Source: a virus. From it: a stretch of 35,191 nt of DNA. Below the pieces are notes generated by a model that was given only the letters and a program-made list of their open reading frames with translations, was not told where the DNA came from and searched no databases. A program made the position numbers and the translations under genes. Position 1 is the stretch's first letter; the number at the start of each line of letters is the position of its first letter. Where the stretch lies: IMG/VR virus record IMGVR_UViG_3300037847_000937, positions 1-35,191 of that record; one strand, given 5' to 3'. Below, in pieces: positions 3,449 to 35,191 of this stretch.

Positions 3449-4369
3449 TTATTGATTAACTGCATCTTCATTACTAATGGCAAGTGACTCGTCTTGTTGG
3501 AGGTAAAGATACGAATCACTTGCATACTTACAAGCTGACCTTAGTGCATCTGGCTTATCTCTAAGAGCCTTAGCCCAACACTTCAAATACTTTGCGTGGT
3601 CTTTTCTAGTCTGATGAAACAAACCCCACTTAGCCATATGAAAGCTAGCACCAAACTCAGCTATAAGTTCCTCGAAGGCATAGTCTTTACTACCAAACTT
3701 CCCAGATAAATCTCTGTTCAATCTATCACTATGCCCTGACCAATGAGTTAGTTCATGATACATTACTGAGTAATATGTCTCAGGTAACTTGAATGAACTA
3801 TACATTGGCATCATTATCTTGTCTTCACTAGGTACATAACAAGCTCTGTTACTACCCTCAACAAAGTTTATGTTGTGAGTATGTATAATCGTAGCTATGT
3901 CATCATCTACCCTATGTATTCTTTCTTCTTTCATTGCGTTGCTGTGTACTGGTATCAAACTTTTCTTTAGTTCAATGATAGTGTTCTTGTCACCAGCAAC
4001 ATGGTCAATGTTATGTATTGATATTGTTTGATATCTTACACCAGCAACTTTATCTTCTTCTGTTTCTTTATCTTTAATTATTCTTGGTACTCGTTGCCAT
4101 AATGGTACACCACTTCTTGGTGCTGGATGTAAACCAATCTTCTTCCATTGGTTATATGTTCCCCATATAGGTGTCAAGTGTCCGTACTTAAAGTTTAAAT
4201 GAAACTGATTCCAACCCTTATACTCGTACCCATTTGGATTCTTATGCAATGAAGTAATCCACTTAGGTGTATATGGTTTGTTGATATCATGTTGTTCCCA
4301 TTCTTCTAGTATAGCTAATCTAATTTCCTCTGTATTTATCTTAGCTATTTCTGCAATAGTCTTAGTCAT
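3449..4369 (-). CDS. ArdC-like antirestriction protein with zincin domain
   Basis: A 306-aa protein with two recognisable parts. The N-terminal third has the ArdC ssDNA-binding pattern (NPNGYEYKGWNQFHL, residues 44-58, then TYNQWKKIG, 71-79). The C-terminal part is a zincin-like metallopeptidase domain with H205-E-L-T-H209, followed by SGHSDRLNR and an EELIAEFGA helix (third ligand probably one of Glu233, Glu234 or Glu238). ArdC proteins protect incoming DNA from restriction enzymes and are found on conjugative plasmids and in phages. Its place in the leftward early operon fits protection during DNA entry. The start has AAAGGG upstream. The length is normal for the family. Confidence 0.88.
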   Translation of the reverse strand: MTKTIAEIAKINTEEIRLAILEEWEQHDINKPYTPKWITSLHKNPNGYEYKGWNQFHLNFKYGHLTPIWGTYNQWKKIGLHPAPRSGVPLWQRVPRIIKDKETEEDKVAGVRYQTISIHNIDHVAGDKNTIIELKKSLIPVHSNAMKEERIHRVDDDIATIIHTHNINFVEGSNRACYVPSEDKIMMPMYSSFKLPETYYSVMYHELTHWSGHSDRLNRDLSGKFGSKDYAFEELIAEFGASFHMAKWGLFHQTRKDHAKYLKCWAKALRDKPDALRSACKYASDSYLYLQQDESLAISNEDAVNQ

Positions 4370-5207: not shown

Positions 5208-5312
5208 ACCATCACCTCCTTTCAAAACTGGGTGGCAAAATTACAATTCTCAATCCATATCCCCCTACCCCAGCGAGATAGGGCGGTGATATGTTTTTTA
5301 TTCATCAAACAG

Positions 5313-5325
5313 ACTGCCGAAGGCA
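5313..5325. other. Small perfect hairpin (CTGCC-GAA-GGCAG)
   Basis: A 5-bp stem with a 3-nt loop lies between the 151-aa gene terminator and the next leftward gene. Similar GC-rich mini-hairpins occur at 5937-5946, 6017-6029 and 6748-6764 around the terminase small-subunit locus. Confidence 0.5.
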
Positions 5326-5341
5326 GACCATTTCAAAGAAT

Positions 5342-5376
5342 AAAAAAATGAGGACAGCCCTAGCTAGACTGTCCTC
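5342..5376 (-). terminator. Rho-independent terminator of the 151-aa gene
   Basis: On the minus strand GAGGACAG (5376-5369) pairs with CTGTCCTC (5357-5350) around an 11-nt loop, followed by A and seven U. It starts 8 nt after the stop codon region of the gene ending at 5384, making that gene a separate transcription unit. The stem and loop align with coding sequence of the terminase small subunit (6584-6604) in the other arm. Confidence 0.88.
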
Positions 5377-5383
5377 TTGAGAG

Positions 5384-5839
5384 TTATCTTAGTAAGAAAG
5401 CTTTGTTGTTTGTAACTTGCTTTGAGTTAGTATCTTGTGGTTTCCATACTTCGCCTGTAACCATCTCATATACATCTGCGAAGAAGATATATTCTGCCCT
5501 CCAATATTTGTAGGCTAAATCGTCTGGCTTTCTCATTTCGGCGAGCTCGTCTAAAAGTTCGTGCTTTAGATCATCGTTCAGAACAAAATCAGGTGACTCG
5601 ATTTCCTGAGCTTTTGAGTCCCAATGCTTGGTACCTTTTATCCTATAATCTTTATTGCCTTCGCTGTACTGCTCTTGTTGTTTGTAAGCAACTGATACTT
5701 GATTAGCAATGAACTTGATTCGACTGTCTGGTAACTGCTGACCTTCCGAGTTCTTGTATTTACAATTCAATATCATTTCTTTGATGATTGAAAGTCTATC
5801 TGTTTTGTCGTTTAAGTTTTTATGATTTGTTTTTGTCAT
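5384..5839 (-). CDS. Unrecognised 151-aa protein in the left arm of the inverted repeat
   Basis: The start MTKTNHKNLNDK has AAAGG about 8 nt upstream; a further ATG at 5878 lacks a site. The protein is soluble, rich in Lys, Asp, Glu and Tyr, with a probable helical N-terminal half and a C-terminal region (HELLDELAEMRKPDD, then YWRAEYIFFADVYEM). I recognise no family. It is monocistronic, with its own terminator, and is transcribed divergently from the terminase small subunit. Its DNA is homologous to the terminase locus in inverted orientation. Some shared blocks are in the same frame (QDTNS here, QDANS in TerS) and others are not. It may be a neofunctionalised or overprinted derivative, an early regulator, or a relic. 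Confidence 0.65.
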   Translation of the reverse strand: MTKTNHKNLNDKTDRLSIIKEMILNCKYKNSEGQQLPDSRIKFIANQVSVAYKQQEQYSEGNKDYRIKGTKHWDSKAQEIESPDFVLNDDLKHELLDELAEMRKPDDLAYKYWRAEYIFFADVYEMVTGEVWKPQDTNSKQVTNNKAFLLR

Positions 5840-6131
5840 TGTATTTACCTTTCTGTAATATAAGTTGTTAATAATCATAAGGATGTCCGCCTATCACCGT
5901 AAAATATAAAGTCCACTACTAATTTGGGGGGGAATGGCGATAGCCAATGATAAAGGGCGAAGCACAATATAACCCTCCAGGAATAAAGGGGGGGAACCGA
6001 ATTAGTAGTGGATATAGTCGCAAGGCGACAGAAATATAGGGTGCTACGCACACCATATACTTTCTATTTTACTGTGGTAGAAGGGTAATATCCTATGATT
6101 ATTAACCTACTTATATGAGAGGAAAGGTAAA
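5840..6131. promoter_or_regulatory. Divergent control region at the centre of the inverted repeat
   Basis: This stretch separates the leftward and rightward arms and encodes no protein. Both arms carry the same upstream elements in mirror image: TTAGTAGTGGA, then a TATGAT -10-like box (5879-5874 on minus; 6094-6099 on plus) leading into ATTATTAAC, then an AAAGG site and ATGACAAAAAC. The left side also has TTTACG 18 nt from its TATGAT. The 75-nt centre (5925-5999) holds two runs of seven G (5926-5932, 5988-5994), each followed by AA. The right arm has an extra 48 nt or so (6013-6060) with two small hairpins. Promoters are likely on both sides; exact boxes are not certain. Confidence 0.65.
6017..6054. 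other. Pair of small hairpins present only in the right arm
   Basis: GTCGC-AAG-GCGAC (6017-6029) and GGTG-CTACGCA-CACC (6040-6054) lie in a segment with no counterpart in the left arm. The second loop contains TGCTACGCA (6042-6050), found again at 6718-6726. CTACGCACA (6044-6052) recurs inverted at 6687-6695. Confidence 0.5.
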
Positions 6132-6297
6132 ATGACAAAAACGAATCAGGAATAAAAACTTGGACTCGTGACAAAACAGATAGGCTTTCACTTATCAAGC
6201 TGGCGTATCAACATTTATCAATAAATACAAGAACTTGGAAGGTCGTCAAATTATTTACTTGACAGTCGTATCAAGAGAATGGTAATCAAGTACCAAT
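6132..6297 (+). pseudogene. Degenerate copy of the 5' end of the 151-aa gene
   Basis: From ATG 6132 the sequence matches the start of the leftward gene (ATGACAAAAAC then AATCA, with one mismatch over 17 nt) and keeps the AAAGG site upstream. The frame closes with TAA after seven codons (MTKTNQE). Further blocks align through 6290 with insertions and another in-frame stop (TGA before the GACAGTCG block). The copy therefore cannot make the same N-terminal region. It might act as a short leader upstream of the terminase gene, or be a relic of the duplication. Confidence 0.75.
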
Positions 6298-6675
6298 ATG
6301 AGTCAACAAACAACAAAAGCATCTCTTACAGCGAAGCAATCCAGATTTATTGATAACTTGTTAGCAGGCATTGGGACACAAGAGCGGTGTGCAATCGAGG
6401 CAGGTTATTCTGAACGATCAGCTAAAGTCGAAGCGAGTCGCCTTTTGAGAAAGACAGCGATTTTGACAGTACTTGCCGAGAGGGCACGAATGTCCCTTCG
6501 AGCCAGATGTGTGAGTGCGTTGCAGACTGTATCAAAACTATCACAAGATGCTAACTCAGAGTATGTTAGATTAGAGGCGAGTAAGGACATTCTAGATAGG
6601 GCTGGCATCAGAGATGATTCTACTAGCCACAATCCTATCACAAACGCAATACAAGTTAATATAGACCTATCTTAG
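6298..6675 (+). CDS. terS: Terminase small subunit
   Basis: A 125-aa protein with the Terminase_2-type N-terminal pattern: LTAKQSRFIDNLL (residues 10-22), TQERCAIEAGYSERSAKVEASRLLRK (a helix-turn-helix, about 27-52), and a C-terminal LEASKDILDRAGI motif. TerS binds the packaging initiation site and recruits the large subunit to start headful or site-specific packaging. It is the first intact gene of the rightward arm. The ribosome-binding site is weak. Its whole coding sequence lies inside the right arm of the inverted repeat, and the conserved ILDRAG coding region aligns with the terminator of the leftward gene. No frameshift is apparent. Confidence 0.85.
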   Translation: MSQQTTKASLTAKQSRFIDNLLAGIGTQERCAIEAGYSERSAKVEASRLLRKTAILTVLAERARMSLRARCVSALQTVSKLSQDANSEYVRLEASKDILDRAGIRDDSTSHNPITNAIQVNIDLS

Positions 6676-6705
6676 CCCTATCTCGCTGTGCGTAGATTAG
6701 GGATT

Positions 6706-6744
6706 GACCGCCCACCTTGCTACGCATATGTGTAGGGGGTGGTC
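6706..6744. other. Long hairpin downstream of terS
   Basis: An outer stem (GACC at 6706-6709 with GGTC at 6741-6744, continuing CCC with GGG) encloses a near-perfect palindrome CTACGCAT-ATGTGTAG (6720-6735). No U-tract follows, so it is not a standard terminator. The TGCTACGCA motif (6718-6726) also occurs upstream of terS. It is a candidate packaging signal or mRNA processing site. Confidence 0.5.
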
Positions 6745-6747
6745 AAA

Positions 6748-6764
6748 AATGCCGACAAGGCATT
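6748..6764. other. Perfect 6-bp hairpin (AATGCC-GACAA-GGCATT)
   Basis: The hairpin lies 3 nt after the long hairpin at 6706-6744 in the untranslated gap between terS and the small basic genes. It resembles the other mini-hairpins around this locus. No U-tract follows. Confidence 0.5.
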
Positions 6765-7772: not shown

Positions 7773-7958
7773 ATGTTTATTAGAACACTATCATTTAAAG
7801 ATTTATTACGACTAAGAAAAATAGTACGCAATACGCATTTAAAATTTTACCCACAAGCAGACTTATCGGATAAAGAGGTAGATAAGTTTATTAATACTCT
7901 CGGTCCAGAGGTAGCAGGTAAAATGATTAAATATGCAGTAGATAATAATCAAGTATGA
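7773..7958 (+). CDS. Hypothetical 61-aa protein before terminase large subunit
   Basis: A small helical protein (MFIRTLSFKDLLRLRKIVRN...), without membrane segments. A DLSDKEVDKFINTLG helix lies around residues 30-44. Its stop overlaps the start of the large terminase gene (ATGA), so translation is coupled. I recognise no family. The position suggests a packaging accessory or just a coupled leader gene. Confidence 0.6.
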   Translation: MFIRTLSFKDLLRLRKIVRNTHLKFYPQADLSDKEVDKFINTLGPEVAGKMIKYAVDNNQV

Positions 7959-9487
7959 AACTTGCATACAAGCCAGATGGCGAAGTGCTAAAAGCATTTA
8001 TGAAAGACAATAGTTTCTTTCGTGGTATTCGTGGACCAGTTGGTTCTGGTAAATCTGTAGCTTGTTGTATAGAAATATTTCGTAGAGCCTTAGCACAAAA
8101 ACCATCTCCTGATGGAATACGAAAAAGTCGTGTTGCTGTTGTGCGTAATACCAATCCACAATTACGAACAACAACAATGAAGACCTGGCTAGATTGGTTT
8201 CCTGAAAAAGATTTTGGTAAGATGAATTGGTCTCCTCCATACACACATAGAATCAAAATAGGAGATATAGATTTAGAAGTAATTTTTTTAGCTTTAGATA
8301 GACCAGAAGATGTGAAAAAGTTACTATCACTAGAACTAACATTCTTATTCTTTAATGAAAGCAGAGAAATAGCAAAGCCAATCATAGATGCAGGGACAAT
8401 GCGTGTAGGCAGATATCCATCTATGAAAGATGGTGGACCAACTTGGTATGGTGTAATCGCAGATACCAACGCACCAGATGAAGACCATTGGTGGTCTGTG
8501 ATGAGTGGAGATGCTCCTCCTCCAGAACATCTGTCACGAGAAGAAGTTATGATGTTAGTAAAACCTGATAACTGGAAATTTTTTACACAGCCTTCAGGTA
8601 TGGTAGAACAAAAAAATAATAACCAAGAAGTAGAAGGTTACAAAGATAATGAAGTAGCAGAGAATAGAAAGAATCTTATGTCCGATTACTATAGGTCTAT
8701 TATAAGAGGAAAAACAAAAAGCTGGATTGATGTGTATGTGATGAATCGATTAGGATCGATAGAAGATGGGAAGCCAGTTTACAAACAATTTTCTCCTGAT
8801 GTACACATAGCAAAAGAACCTATTATTCCAGCAGAGGTTCCATACTATGTAGGTATAGATTTTGGATTAACTCCTGCTTGTGTGTTTGCACAACAAGTAC
8901 GAGGGAGGTGGTTAATCCTTAGAGAGATTGTAGCAAAAGATATGGGAATGGTGCGATTTGCCGAATTGCTACGAAAAGAAATGGCAGAGTATTTTAGATC
9001 GATACCTATAGCTAGAATTTATGGCGATCCTGCTGGTGACTATAGAGCCCAAACAGATGAGTCAACTCCATTTCAAATTTTGCGTGGTGCTGGTATTCGT
9101 GCCATTCCAGCACCATCCAATGATGTAAGTTTACGAATAGAAAGTGTGCAAGCACCATTAACTCGTTTAATAGAAGGTAAGTCAGGAATGTTAATAGACA
9201 AACAATGTAAGCATCTAATCAAAGGTTTTGAAGGTGGTTATCAATACAAAAGGATGCAGGTATCAGGAGAACGATACACCGATAAACCAGATAAAAATCA
9301 TTATTCGCATATCCATGATGCATTACAATATTTATTATTAGGAGCAGGAGAAGGAAAACAAATAACAAAATCACAACAACCAGCTAGAGTGGTACAAGCA
9401 AAAACTGATTTTGATGTCTTTACAAAAGCTCCAAAAAAGAATATAAGAAAGAAATGGAATATATTCGATATTCGTACAAGGTTATAA
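7955..9487 (+). CDS. terL: Terminase large subunit (packaging ATPase and nuclease)
   Basis: A 510-aa protein of normal family length. The N-terminal ATPase domain has a Walker A, GPVGSGKS (residues 27-34), and a Walker B-like strand FLFFNE ending N134-E135. The C-terminal RNase H-like nuclease domain has the expected acidic residues: Asp302 in VGIDFG, Asp358 in YGDPAGD and Asp455 in IHDALQYLL. It pumps DNA into the prohead with TerS and the portal and cuts the concatemer. Asn replaces the usual Walker B Asp, while the catalytic Glu is kept. The start overlaps the previous stop. Confidence 0.92.
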   Translation: MKLAYKPDGEVLKAFMKDNSFFRGIRGPVGSGKSVACCIEIFRRALAQKPSPDGIRKSRVAVVRNTNPQLRTTTMKTWLDWFPEKDFGKMNWSPPYTHRIKIGDIDLEVIFLALDRPEDVKKLLSLELTFLFFNESREIAKPIIDAGTMRVGRYPSMKDGGPTWYGVIADTNAPDEDHWWSVMSGDAPPPEHLSREEVMMLVKPDNWKFFTQPSGMVEQKNNNQEVEGYKDNEVAENRKNLMSDYYRSIIRGKTKSWIDVYVMNRLGSIEDGKPVYKQFSPDVHIAKEPIIPAEVPYYVGIDFGLTPACVFAQQVRGRWLILREIVAKDMGMVRFAELLRKEMAEYFRSIPIARIYGDPAGDYRAQTDESTPFQILRGAGIRAIPAPSNDVSLRIESVQAPLTRLIEGKSGMLIDKQCKHLIKGFEGGYQYKRMQVSGERYTDKPDKNHYSHIHDALQYLLLGAGEGKQITKSQQPARVVQAKTDFDVFTKAPKKNIRKKWNIFDIRTRL

Positions 9488-29085: not shown

Positions 29086-29406
29086 ATGGCAACAAGAATG
29101 TCAGATCAAGTAAGAGCATACTGTACAGATAAAGGTTTTAGTGGTGAAGTAAAGTTTGTGGGACCAGAAGCAAATGTTATAATGGAAGAAGTAGATGGTT
29201 CAATTACTATTAAACATTGGTCAGTAGATGGTGTAGCAAAACCAACTATATCTACACTAAACACATATGCAAAGCAAGGCAAAGCATTAGAAGATGCAAT
29301 CATTGCTTTTGATAATAAAAGAGATGATTTAAAAGCTAGTGCTAAAACTAAGTTAAAAGACTTAGGTCTTACTGATGATGAAATAAAAGCTACTTTAGGA
29401 ATGTAA
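29086..29406 (+). CDS. Hypothetical protein, possible tail-fibre assembly factor
   Basis: A 106-aa protein with a beta-rich first half and a helical second half (TYAKQGKALEDAIIAFDNKRDDLKASAKTKLKDLG). The end has KLKDLGLTDDEIKATLG. It lies between fibre genes, as small fibre chaperones do, but I do not recognise a chaperone family with certainty. Its stop overlaps the start of the next gene (TAATG). Confidence 0.55.
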   Translation: MATRMSDQVRAYCTDKGFSGEVKFVGPEANVIMEEVDGSITIKHWSVDGVAKPTISTLNTYAKQGKALEDAIIAFDNKRDDLKASAKTKLKDLGLTDDEIKATLGM

Positions 29407-29972
29407 TGTCAGGTATAATTTCCGCAGGTATTAATAGGTCTTCAGGATTAATGAAAGCACTAGCATCAGGTGGTAATACACCATCATTTATGGCAGTACG
29501 AGGTGAAGATACTTGTTCTGGTGATAGCTGTAGACAATTATTAACTGATGCAACATTAGATAAATGTGAATTTAATCAAGAAATATATGATACAGATGGT
29601 TGTTATGATGTATCAAATTACAGATTTGTTCCAAGTACAGCAGGGTTCTATTATATAGAAGCTAAGTTTAAATTAAGGTGTCATACAGATAGATTCATAA
29701 CTTCTGATAGTTATTTAAGATTTAATGGAGGAAGTTCTGCAACAGATATATTAGCAGGACATAGACATCATGGTTCTCAAAGCAGTGGATATACTTATGA
29801 TGCAGAACTTAATGTTCATTTATCAGCAATAAAAGAATTTAATGGTTCGTCAGATTATGTTGAAGTGTGGACTAATTTTAATGTAACTACTGGTGTTCCT
29901 ATTTTTGTTGGTGGTAGTACAAATGCTAGCATTTGGAGACAATCACATTTTCATGGATTTAAATTAGGATAA
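29406..29972 (+). CDS. C1q-like receptor-binding protein, copy 1
   Basis: A 188-aa protein, first of three tandem paralogues. The N terminus SGIISAGINRSSGLMKAL is shared by all three. The body has F-M-A-x-RG at residues 33-38, a CSGDSC motif (42-47), FNQEIYDTDGCYDVSNYRFVPSTAG (59-83) and FNGSSDYVEVW, a pattern close to C1q/TNF-like jelly rolls, which trimerise and often bind receptors or glycans. It is inferred to be part of the adhesion apparatus at the tail. Four Cys residues at conserved places may pair. Confidence 0.65.
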   Translation: MSGIISAGINRSSGLMKALASGGNTPSFMAVRGEDTCSGDSCRQLLTDATLDKCEFNQEIYDTDGCYDVSNYRFVPSTAGFYYIEAKFKLRCHTDRFITSDSYLRFNGGSSATDILAGHRHHGSQSSGYTYDAELNVHLSAIKEFNGSSDYVEVWTNFNVTTGVPIFVGGSTNASIWRQSHFHGFKLG

Positions 29973-29974
29973 TT

Positions 29975-30529
29975 ATGTCAGGTATTATAGGAGCAAATGT
30001 AGGAAGGTCGTCAGGTTTAAAAAAAGTTTTACCTGCTGGTGGCAATACACCAATGTTTATGGCACATAGAGGTGCTGATGGTTGTTCTGGTGATGGTTGT
30101 TCGCAAAGTACATCAGATAATACTTACACAAAAGCATACTTCAATGGTGAAAGAATAGATACAGATAACTGTTATGATCCAAGTACCTATAGATGGACAC
30201 CAAATAAAGCAGGTAAGTATTATATATTTGCTAAACTATATATGGGTGAATATCAAGATAGATTAGTTATAGCTAGAACTGAATTTAGAATCAATGGTAA
30301 TAACTATGGTGTAGGACAGCAAACAAGTTATGATGCAGAATTTCAAAGTTCTGGGTATAGTAGAGATGCTCAAGTAAATAATACAATGGCTCAAATAATT
30401 GAATTCAATGGTAGTTCTGATTATGTAGAGTGTTGGTTACAAGTAGACCAAAGTGCAAATTATGCAAGACTTTTTGGTGGTGGTCAATCAGCAGATGGTA
30501 GTTATTGGGGTGGTTTTTATATAGGATAA
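29975..30529 (+). CDS. C1q-like receptor-binding protein, copy 2
   Basis: A 184-aa protein paralogous to its neighbours: SGIIGANVGRSSGLKKVL, FMAHRGADGCSGDGC, FNGERIDTDNCYDPSTYRWTP, then NGSSDYVECWLQ. The starts of copies 2 and 3 both use an AGGA that overlaps the previous gene stop, so translation is coupled. The framework residues are kept while loops differ (for example around residues 95-125), as expected of diversified binding surfaces. Confidence 0.65.
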   Translation: MSGIIGANVGRSSGLKKVLPAGGNTPMFMAHRGADGCSGDGCSQSTSDNTYTKAYFNGERIDTDNCYDPSTYRWTPNKAGKYYIFAKLYMGEYQDRLVIARTEFRINGNNYGVGQQTSYDAEFQSSGYSRDAQVNNTMAQIIEFNGSSDYVECWLQVDQSANYARLFGGGQSADGSYWGGFYIG

Positions 30530-30531
30530 TT

Positions 30532-31080
30532 ATGACTGGTATCATATCAAATAATGTAGGTAGAGATTCAGGTTTAATAAAAGCAACAGCTGGTGCATCT
30601 AACAAACCATACTTTATGGCATACAGAGGAACCAATGATTGTTCAGGAGATGCATGTAATTATAACTTTAGTGATAACAGTTATGTAAAGACACCATTTA
30701 ATAATGAAGCTATAGATTCTGATAGTTGTTATGATGTATCTAATTATAGATTTACTCCAAATGTAGCAGGTAAATATTTTGTTTTTGCATCTGTTCGTAC
30801 AACTGGAGGTACATTAGATAGGTGGCAACAAGGATATTATGAAATAAGAAAAAACAATACTAGAGAGGTTGGTTCTTATTATGATGGTGGTGGTCAAAGT
30901 TCTGGGTATACAAGAGATTATTCTAATACTATGTATCTTTCTACAGTAGTAGATATGAATGGTAGTTCAGATTATTTAGAAGTTTATATGAAAGTAGATG
31001 AGTCGTCTTCTACCCCCTGGTTATCTGGTGGTCCAGGCAATTATTTTCCAACATATTTTGGAGCATATAAGTTAGCATGA
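30532..31080 (+). CDS. C1q-like receptor-binding protein, copy 3
   Basis: A 182-aa third paralogue: TGIISNNVGRDSGLIKAT, FMAYRGTNDCSGDAC, FNNEAIDSDSCYDVSNYRFTP, then NGSSDYLEVYMK. The ATG at 30532 aligns with the starts of the other two copies and follows an AGGA, so the upstream in-frame GTG at 30505 is not used. Copies 1-3 have diverged most in the strands after residue 85. Its stop overlaps the start of the 27-aa AT-hook peptide. Confidence 0.65.
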   Translation: MTGIISNNVGRDSGLIKATAGASNKPYFMAYRGTNDCSGDACNYNFSDNSYVKTPFNNEAIDSDSCYDVSNYRFTPNVAGKYFVFASVRTTGGTLDRWQQGYYEIRKNNTREVGSYYDGGGQSSGYTRDYSNTMYLSTVVDMNGSSDYLEVYMKVDESSSTPWLSGGPGNYFPTYFGAYKLA

Positions 31081-33145: not shown

Positions 33146-33321
33146 CTAGGTAGAATCATAAGCGAAAGTTTTTTAGTGGCACTCAGCGGTCATTTAAACG
33201 GATTTAAAAAGCCTAGATTTCTGGGATTTCTACACGACTAGGGTTTTAGTAACTTATCCCCAAGTTATCACACACAATTTAATATTGTTAGCAAATTTTC
33301 CCTAGTCGTATAGGAATATTA
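33146..33321. other. Convergent intergenic region with 10-bp inverted repeat
   Basis: This gap separates the ends of the rightward and leftward arms. ACGACTAGGG (33234-33243) is exactly inverted as CCCTAGTCGT (33301-33310) with 57 nt between. Inside are a 6-bp hairpin (TAACTT-ATCCCC-AAGTTA), a TTATCCCCA (33254-33262) one base from the DnaA box TTATCCACA, and an AT-rich stretch. I see no convincing terminator, RNA gene or ORF. An origin or recombination site is possible. Confidence 0.4.
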
Positions 33322-34259: not shown

Positions 34260-34605
34260 CTGCTACACTCTTAGTCGTACCACCATCTCCTTTCTTTTCA
34301 CATAGTTCAATACGACTATTGTATTCACCACAAACTATACTCCACCATGTCTTACCTTCATCATCTTTACGAGAACGAAGCTCGCCTTCTAAGTATACTA
34401 TGCTACCTTTCTTTACATAGTCTAATACAAACTTGGCTTTGTACTCATCAAAGACAGAGACTCTATGATGGTCTGCCTTTCTATTTTCTTGTGTGCCAGA
34501 GTTAGTAGTAACTACTAGCTTACACCATGTCTTGTCGTCTCTTGCTATTCTCTCTGGATCTACTGCACAATAACCAAGACAAGTAAATTTATTTACTGTT
34601 CTCAT
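34237..34605 (-). CDS. ssb: Single-stranded DNA-binding protein
   Basis: A 122-aa OB-fold SSB: MRTVNKFTCLGYCAVDPE at the N terminus, then HHRVSVFDEYKAKFVLDYVKKGSIVYLEGELRSR, and an acidic tail ending DDDAPPF, the tip used by bacterial SSBs to recruit partner enzymes. A GTG in frame at 34617 is available, but GAGG lies 6 nt before the ATG at 34605, so that is the start. It overlaps the ERF gene by 17 nt. It would coat ssDNA made by the exonuclease for ERF-driven annealing. Confidence 0.9.
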   Translation of the reverse strand: MRTVNKFTCLGYCAVDPERIARDDKTWCKLVVTTNSGTQENRKADHHRVSVFDEYKAKFVLDYVKKGSIVYLEGELRSRKDDEGKTWWSIVCGEYNSRIELCEKKGDGGTTKSVADDDAPPF

Positions 34606-35191
34606 TTTTAACCTCACTTTCTTTTATAAATTTAATTTGTTCTTTGTATGAATTTTGAAACCACTTTTGATCGTCTTTAGTAAGAGCTTCTATTTCATCT
34701 TTGTATGTAAAATATAATTTATCTAACATAGCTTTGTCTGCTGATTCATGGATAGTATCAGTAAACTCTTGCTTCAATCTATTGATATCTTTCTCTGTCT
34801 TACCACTTGCAGCTTGACCATCATCATCTGTGTCTGCAACTATACCAAGTATAGACTGCATACCATATCTTCTAGCATAAGTAATAGCACTACCTTGTTG
34901 CTGTGGATCTGCTGGATTTTTACAGACCAATGGTACACCTTCATCTTCAATACTTTCACCAGATATATGACGCAGTATAGTTTTAAGTAAAGGTGTTTTA
35001 GATCCACTATCACTTAATACACTTGGTTGCTTTACTACTTGAAACAAAATAAACCCATGTTTGTATAATATAGGTTTTACTGTTTTGATAATAGTCAACA
35101 AGTCAGCATACTTATTTTTGAAGTATGGATTGTCAGCAGTTGCACCTGGATTATTTAACTCGTGATACAAGTTAAACAAATCCATATTGAA
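34589..35191 (-). CDS. erf: ERF-family ssDNA-annealing recombinase (main part; 5' end at 1-141)
   Basis: This carries most of the 214-aa ERF protein; the 5' end continues at 1-141 of the window. The ERF pattern is clear: NPYFKNKYADLLTIIKTVKPIL, KHGFILFQVV, then GSAITYARRYGMQSILGI followed by DTDDDGQA. ERF proteins form rings that anneal complementary ssDNA; they replace RecT/Beta in phages such as P22. The C-terminal third is charged and helical. An internal ATG at 35185 is not the start, because the frame and a better ribosome-binding site continue across the junction. Confidence 0.9.
   Translation of the reverse strand, partial: FNMDLFNLYHELNNPGATADNPYFKNKYADLLTIIKTVKPILYKHGFILFQVVKQPSVLSDSGSKTPLLKTILRHISGESIEDEGVPLVCKNPADPQQQGSAITYARRYGMQSILGIVADTDDDGQAASGKTEKDINRLKQEFTDTIHESADKAMLDKLYFTYKDEIEALTKDDQKWFQNSYKEQIKFIKESEVKNENSK
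35094..35191. repeat. Terminal direct repeat, right copy
   Basis: Identical to bases 2-99. See the left copy; together they define a unit length of 35,092 bp. Confidence 0.95.

Follow-up and report, generated by a model that had tools for sequence, protein, structure and literature searches.

In bacteria, long inverted repeats tend to be unstable, and they rarely overlap coding sequence. The nearest published parallel that we found to the locus described here is provided by the coding palindromes of Nematomorpha mitochondrial genes, which are perfect, reach 284 bp and lie inside genes (PMC6649704). Those palindromes resemble the present locus in being long inverted repeats in coding sequence, with both arms coding, that recur at the same places in relatives, and template switching has been discussed as the cause of their concerted evolution, as it is below for the phage locus (PMC6649704). 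In contrast, the phage repeat is imperfect, extends up to 690 bp and joins two different divergent genes together with a non-coding leader. A second parallel is quasipalindrome template-switch mutation, by which arms grow alike, multinucleotide changes arise and proteins can be altered (PMC8604942, PMC7202029, PMC8794818). When replication switches template between the arms of an imperfect inverted repeat, the arms can become homogenised and multinucleotide changes can arise in genes (PMC8604942); such events can mimic compensatory changes (PMC8794818). The quasipalindromes of yeast genes have arms of 7-16 bp with spacers of up to 70, whereas the phage arms are 100-690 bp long and have been kept over deep divergence.

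Phages also offer a parallel in lambda nutL/nutR and HK022 putL/putR, which are short, conserved and similar leader RNA elements carried on two outward transcripts. The present locus likewise has similar leader sequences on either side of a phage control region; unlike in lambda and HK022, hundreds of bases, coding sequence included, change in step with the adjacent gene in each genome. Literature searches on pelagiphage inverted repeats, and on phage inverted repeats with terminase and concerted evolution, found nothing relevant.

A mirrored locus at the terminase small subunit gene

The window analysed here is the whole 35,191-bp stretch of IMG/VR virus record IMGVR_UViG_3300037847_000937. 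A sequence-only reading had described mirrored DNA running over a divergent control region and the genes on both sides of it, and end-to-end alignment bears this out. Aligned globally, the reverse complement of the left arm (5271-5924, - strand) and the right arm (6000-6688, + strand) share 466 identities in 588 aligned columns with a score of 209.5, compared to a mean of 29.5 (sd 4.7, maximum 46.5) when the left arm was dinucleotide-shuffled 300 times. With the control region excluded, the alignments still stand at z of about 22-24 above shuffles, 5271-5690 against 6298-6688 scoring 107.5 (shuffles 17.2 ± 3.8) and 5384-5690 against 6298-6661 scoring 95 (shuffles 16.3 ± 3.5). The repeat listing gives colinear inverted blocks between the arms at 75-100% identity, and to the earlier description we add about 50 small indels that, besides the mismatches, set the arms apart. 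A scan of the whole record found a single long inverted repeat, scoring 194 at position 5985, with a runner-up of 30. The limits of the arms rest on their alignment and co-variation; the centre, or loop, between them (5925-5999) is that of the sequence-only reading, and short hairpins appear there in the predicted fold.

The right arm contains the terminase small subunit gene terS (6298-6675, + strand, 125 aa), whose identity, already proposed from the sequence, was confirmed by matches to Pfam Terminase_2 (E 3.9e-10; 41 bits, curated cut-off 26.1) and to the PHROG terminase small subunit; the TerL gene lies next to it at 7955-9487 (PHROG profile). Divergent from terS, the left arm contains what we call the L gene (5384-5839, - strand), which starts at an ATG 13 codons into the listed ORF and encodes an unrecognised helical protein of 151 aa. 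Profile searches with the L protein yielded no Pfam match and no PHROG match, and its AlphaFold2 models, which are helical and of moderate confidence, retrieved no Foldseek match at E<=0.001. Recognisable L gene homologues were found in the near-identical contig L001/L021, in L002 and in L003 only, and dN/dS for the window against L002 and L003 is 0.45-0.48. Within groups, dN/dS where defined is 0.03-0.48 for the left gene and about 0-0.30 for terS, and by these ratios both genes are under purifying selection. The L gene is a separate, fast-evolving gene. A paralogous gene pair was considered and rejected, since both genes read the aligned DNA in different frames and a family match exists for terS only; the two genes are not copies of one another, the DNA being homologous and the frames different. 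In the window's clade one DNA carries two unrelated genes, each under purifying selection, in different frames.

An intrinsic-terminator-like hairpin 3' of the L gene (5350-5376, - strand), recognised from sequence and alignment, lies opposite the terS codons for KDILDRAGI, and as read from the alignment the terminator of each phage in the window's clade tends to mirror that phage's own KDILDRAGI codon choice. On the other side, the stretch 6000-6297 (+ strand) is non-coding and aligns as the mirror of the promoter region and leader of the L gene and of its first ~50 codons. Within this mirror, a short ORF reading MTKTNQE followed by a stop (6132-6155, + strand), with the ribosome-binding-site-like sequence GAGAGGAAAGG, mirrors the L gene start. 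Further along, the motif GTCAAATTATTTACTTGACA (6244-6288, + strand) is kept upstream of terS in relatives, its 21-bp form being present in 16 viral stretches, and it includes the promoter-like TTGACA-18-TAATCA, a putative promoter. The palindromic motif TGTCAAATTATTTACTTGACA (6244-6264; 16 viral-contig stretches) is near-invariant upstream of terS in relatives and may serve as an operator and/or -35 box. We considered and rejected the TGTCAA half of this motif as a leftward promoter, since by eye no convincing -10 follows it. A consensus promoter scan gave 6 matches against 4.4 expected, which is not above chance. Downstream of terS, a G+C-rich hairpin-like sequence with no clear T run (6695-6750; TTGACCGCCCACC...GGGGGTGGTCAA) recurs after terS in L002 and L007.

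Elsewhere in the window, three consecutive genes at 29406-31080 match phrog_15750 (unknown function), which suggests tandem paralogues, and profile matches at 3449-4369 (an anti-restriction protein), 252-1058 (a RecE-like exonuclease) and 34589-35185 (an Erf-like annealing protein) show that the phage carries its own recombination genes.

Distribution of the repeat among relatives

Relatives of terS were found at 20 viral loci, and in every one examined terS is faced by a divergent gene. The genes in this left position form several groups that cannot be aligned with one another. The search of relatives gave a mixed picture: many carry an inverted repeat at the same place, the junction of terS and the divergent gene, and L004, L010, L011, L016 and L017 show little or none. 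The closest cultured relative found is Pelagibacter phage EXVC031P Hodr (OQ414635), which has the same gene order as the window, a TerL 65% identical and a terS 36% identical. Its repeat is at the same place, scores 178 over a genome background of ~29 and is unique in the genome; it differs from that of the window in its extent, which takes in the leader and roughly the first 80-90 codons of Hodr's own L gene but no more than the beginning of terS, and the Hodr L protein has no recognisable similarity to the window's. Labels look swapped between two GenBank records: OQ414635.1 (L065), titled EXVC031P Hodr, has locus tags EXVC032PBaldr_*, and OQ414636.1 (L067), titled EXVC032P Baldr, has locus tags EXVC031PHodr_*.

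A wider TerL search retrieved 80 loci, 31 of them with at least 2.9 kb upstream of TerL, and a repeat scoring at least 45 is present in 15 of these 31. Where the layout was read, the repeats lie upstream of terS, usually at the start of the divergent gene. No repeat of comparable strength was found in Methylophilales phage MEP301, Burkholderia phage BcepC6B or Pelagibacter phage Baldr.

By inspection, the left arm includes the L gene start codon in 18 of 24 repeats, the other six being among the weaker ones. The whole of terS lies within the repeat in the window's clade only, and the beginning of terS does so in the L007-L046 clade and in Hodr; terS is also present in relatives whose repeat leaves it uncovered. 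Because the L gene start is so widely included and terS is covered in few clades, the common element is the left-gene leader and start, plus a right-hand and mostly non-coding mirror. The core of the mirrored locus is accordingly the L gene start region, and not terS itself. In both L070 and the window, copies of parts of the left gene start survive in the mirror: a sequence resembling a ribosome-binding site and a short ORF, which in L070 reads MDKMIELEHLKDKH followed by a stop. Between L004 and L005, terS DNA is ~96% identical. This identity ends ~60-70 nt before the terS start; the entire left gene, centre and right leader differ beside this near-identical terS. To judge from this pair, the mirror pair appears to have been exchanged as a unit.

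The two arms change together

In a matrix of left against right arms, the own-pair scores of phages with a clear repeat are 94-244, and those between groups are mostly 20-40; a right arm resembles the left gene of its own genome, even where the left genes of different groups cannot be aligned. We also used a four-sequence site test, for which an old duplication predicts equal concerted and cross counts. The concerted:cross counts are 45:6 for window/L002, 38:5 for window/L003 and 14:3 for L002/L003; they are 20:4, 20:3 and 12:3, respectively, within terS coding sequence, and 20:2 against L002 in the non-coding mirror at 6000-6297.

In consensus folds, Watson-Crick double changes were counted at long-range pairs and compared to slid controls, in which the pairing partners were shifted by 1-3 columns. 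Such changes occur at 42 of 286 pairs in the window's clade (controls 2-4) and at 45 of 152 pairs in the L007-L046 clade (controls 4-10). For the short repeats of the Hodr-like group, the counts are 7 against 0-1 (L094/L116) and 12 and 14 against 1-6 (L102); L139 and L144, of the same group, are too similar to show co-variation either way. Compensatory base-pair changes thus exceed slid controls, as structured RNA would require, and arm-to-arm co-variation appears in at least three sub-lineages. As an imperfect inverted repeat with arm-to-arm homogenisation, the locus also fits the definition of a quasipalindrome on that point.

For either strand, the predicted fold is far stronger than in shuffles (z -16 and -19). 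Among the mismatches, G.T prevails on the + strand by 161:55, at sites that are G/T-rich overall (T.T+G.G 145 against A.A+C.C 95) and whose base make-up, calculated from the mismatch counts, predicts 24% G.T where 25% is observed. Reading the strand from G.U counts (113:54, then 75:14) was abandoned, as a composition control removes most of the signal, and transitions to G.U versus those to A.C, counted in close pairs, gave no clear strand signal. Unpaired (bulged) bases are A/G-rich on the - strand. Rfam 15 returned no match at gathering score in the window.

Pairing, template switching and other explanations

The reading that we favour, at about even odds, is that the locus forms a long imperfect hairpin, in RNA or single-stranded DNA, whose arms are kept complementary by selection on pairing and which controls expression of the L gene. 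The core of the hairpin would be the L gene leader, ribosome-binding site and start codon, and the right arm would be for the most part a non-coding mirror, following the L gene through its changes. In the clade of the window, this mirror would have been extended through the rest of the L gene, the L terminator and terS, so that one DNA would carry two unrelated proteins and a pairing constraint. Pairing would most probably take place in RNA and control L gene expression, either as a long hairpin in the leader of the L mRNA that would conceal the L gene start, or as an antisense or decoy pair formed by + strand RNA of the L side with right-arm RNA. Two points weigh against this reading. The promoter-like motifs may be located within the arms and direct transcription outward, so that each mRNA would hold a single arm, and some relatives have little or no repeat. 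That pairing beyond mutation maintains the repeat, that RNA is the molecule and which target is regulated are all points that we infer. The sequence-only reading had allowed that selection for shared regulation, a DNA structure or packaging might hold the arms, which comes close to our reading.

The main rival is mutational. Under it, the locus is a quasi-palindrome in which template switching during replication keeps copying patches between the arms, the resulting similarity serves no function, and coding constraint together with the instability of perfect palindromes keeps the repeat imperfect. Arm homogenisation and mimicked compensation are both documented (PMC8604942, PMC8794818), and some clustered co-changes here resemble what it would produce. 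A terS serine codon is TCA or AGT in L002 versus L003 with a matching change in the L gene, and is a candidate clustered co-change. The window and L001 differ at 9 positions in 10.4 kb, three of them adjacent substitutions at 5419-5421 in the left arm and the other six isolated. Of seven comparisons, two show clustering of the double changes (W/L002, P 0.01; L007/L012, P 0.0055). In the closest informative pair, L002/L003, they are instead spread: the helices that contain the co-changed pairs are 3-14 bp long, and the mean distance from such a pair to an interruption common to both genomes is 1.85 bp, a placement that suits pair-by-pair compensation better than long conversion tracts. Against homogenisation there is also the persistence of the repeat at one place over deep divergence, and the non-coding right arm, although free to do so, has not been turned into a perfect copy of the left. 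Template switching is likely to be the source of some of the mutations here; as the explanation of the whole we regard it as unlikely. We favour selection on pairing because of the spread co-changes of L002/L003, the persistent interruptions, the imperfect right arm and the recurrence at one place across a deep group.

Palindromes occur at viral origins, and the repeat could instead act as DNA, extruding or folding in single-stranded DNA as a replication origin or packaging signal between the divergent gene blocks. The cumulative GC skew of the window has its minimum at 5779 and its maximum at 33249, where the gene blocks converge, but this is confounded, as skew follows gene direction. The repeat is missing from some relatives, and its core tracks the L gene start and not the geometric centre. 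We consider a function of this kind improbable.

If the control region and its neighbouring genes had long ago been duplicated in inverted orientation and were now simply decaying, colinear homology from end to end would be accounted for. After a single old event, left and right arms should be as similar between genomes as within one, and both the site counts of 45:6 and 38:5 and the arm matrix contradict this, within-genome similarity being far greater; nor does such a duplication explain why right arms match their own left genes across groups with non-alignable left genes. As the whole story it fails, and we hold it to be very unlikely. An assembly or amplification artefact, which inverted chimeras in amplified metagenomes and the error-like, indel-rich difference between the arms might bring to mind, is next to impossible given the near-identical locus in L001, a contig with another IMG/VR sample number (99.9% identity over 10.4 kb), the homologous repeats in many contigs and a cultured phage, and the purifying selection on both genes.

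Significance of the locus

Returning to selection on pairing, we tentatively suggest that this giant, fast-evolving hairpin could be a new kind of phage regulatory element, in which a non-coding mirror arm is re-tuned all the time to the start of a divergent gene, and sometimes to its whole coding sequence, and control of that gene is exerted by RNA-RNA pairing; in one clade the mirror would have captured terS, which would now be under a second constraint in another frame. Arms of up to 690 bp over two genes, recurrence in a wide group of marine phages with a cultured member among them, and co-variation in at least three sub-lineages point to a function or a mutational process that is apparently undescribed for phages. 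With this locus, compensatory selection can be tested against template-switch homogenisation, and so can the question of how a packaging gene tolerates an overlapping structural constraint. That the arms change jointly suggests that their mutual pairing is useful to the phage, in a way undescribed so far.
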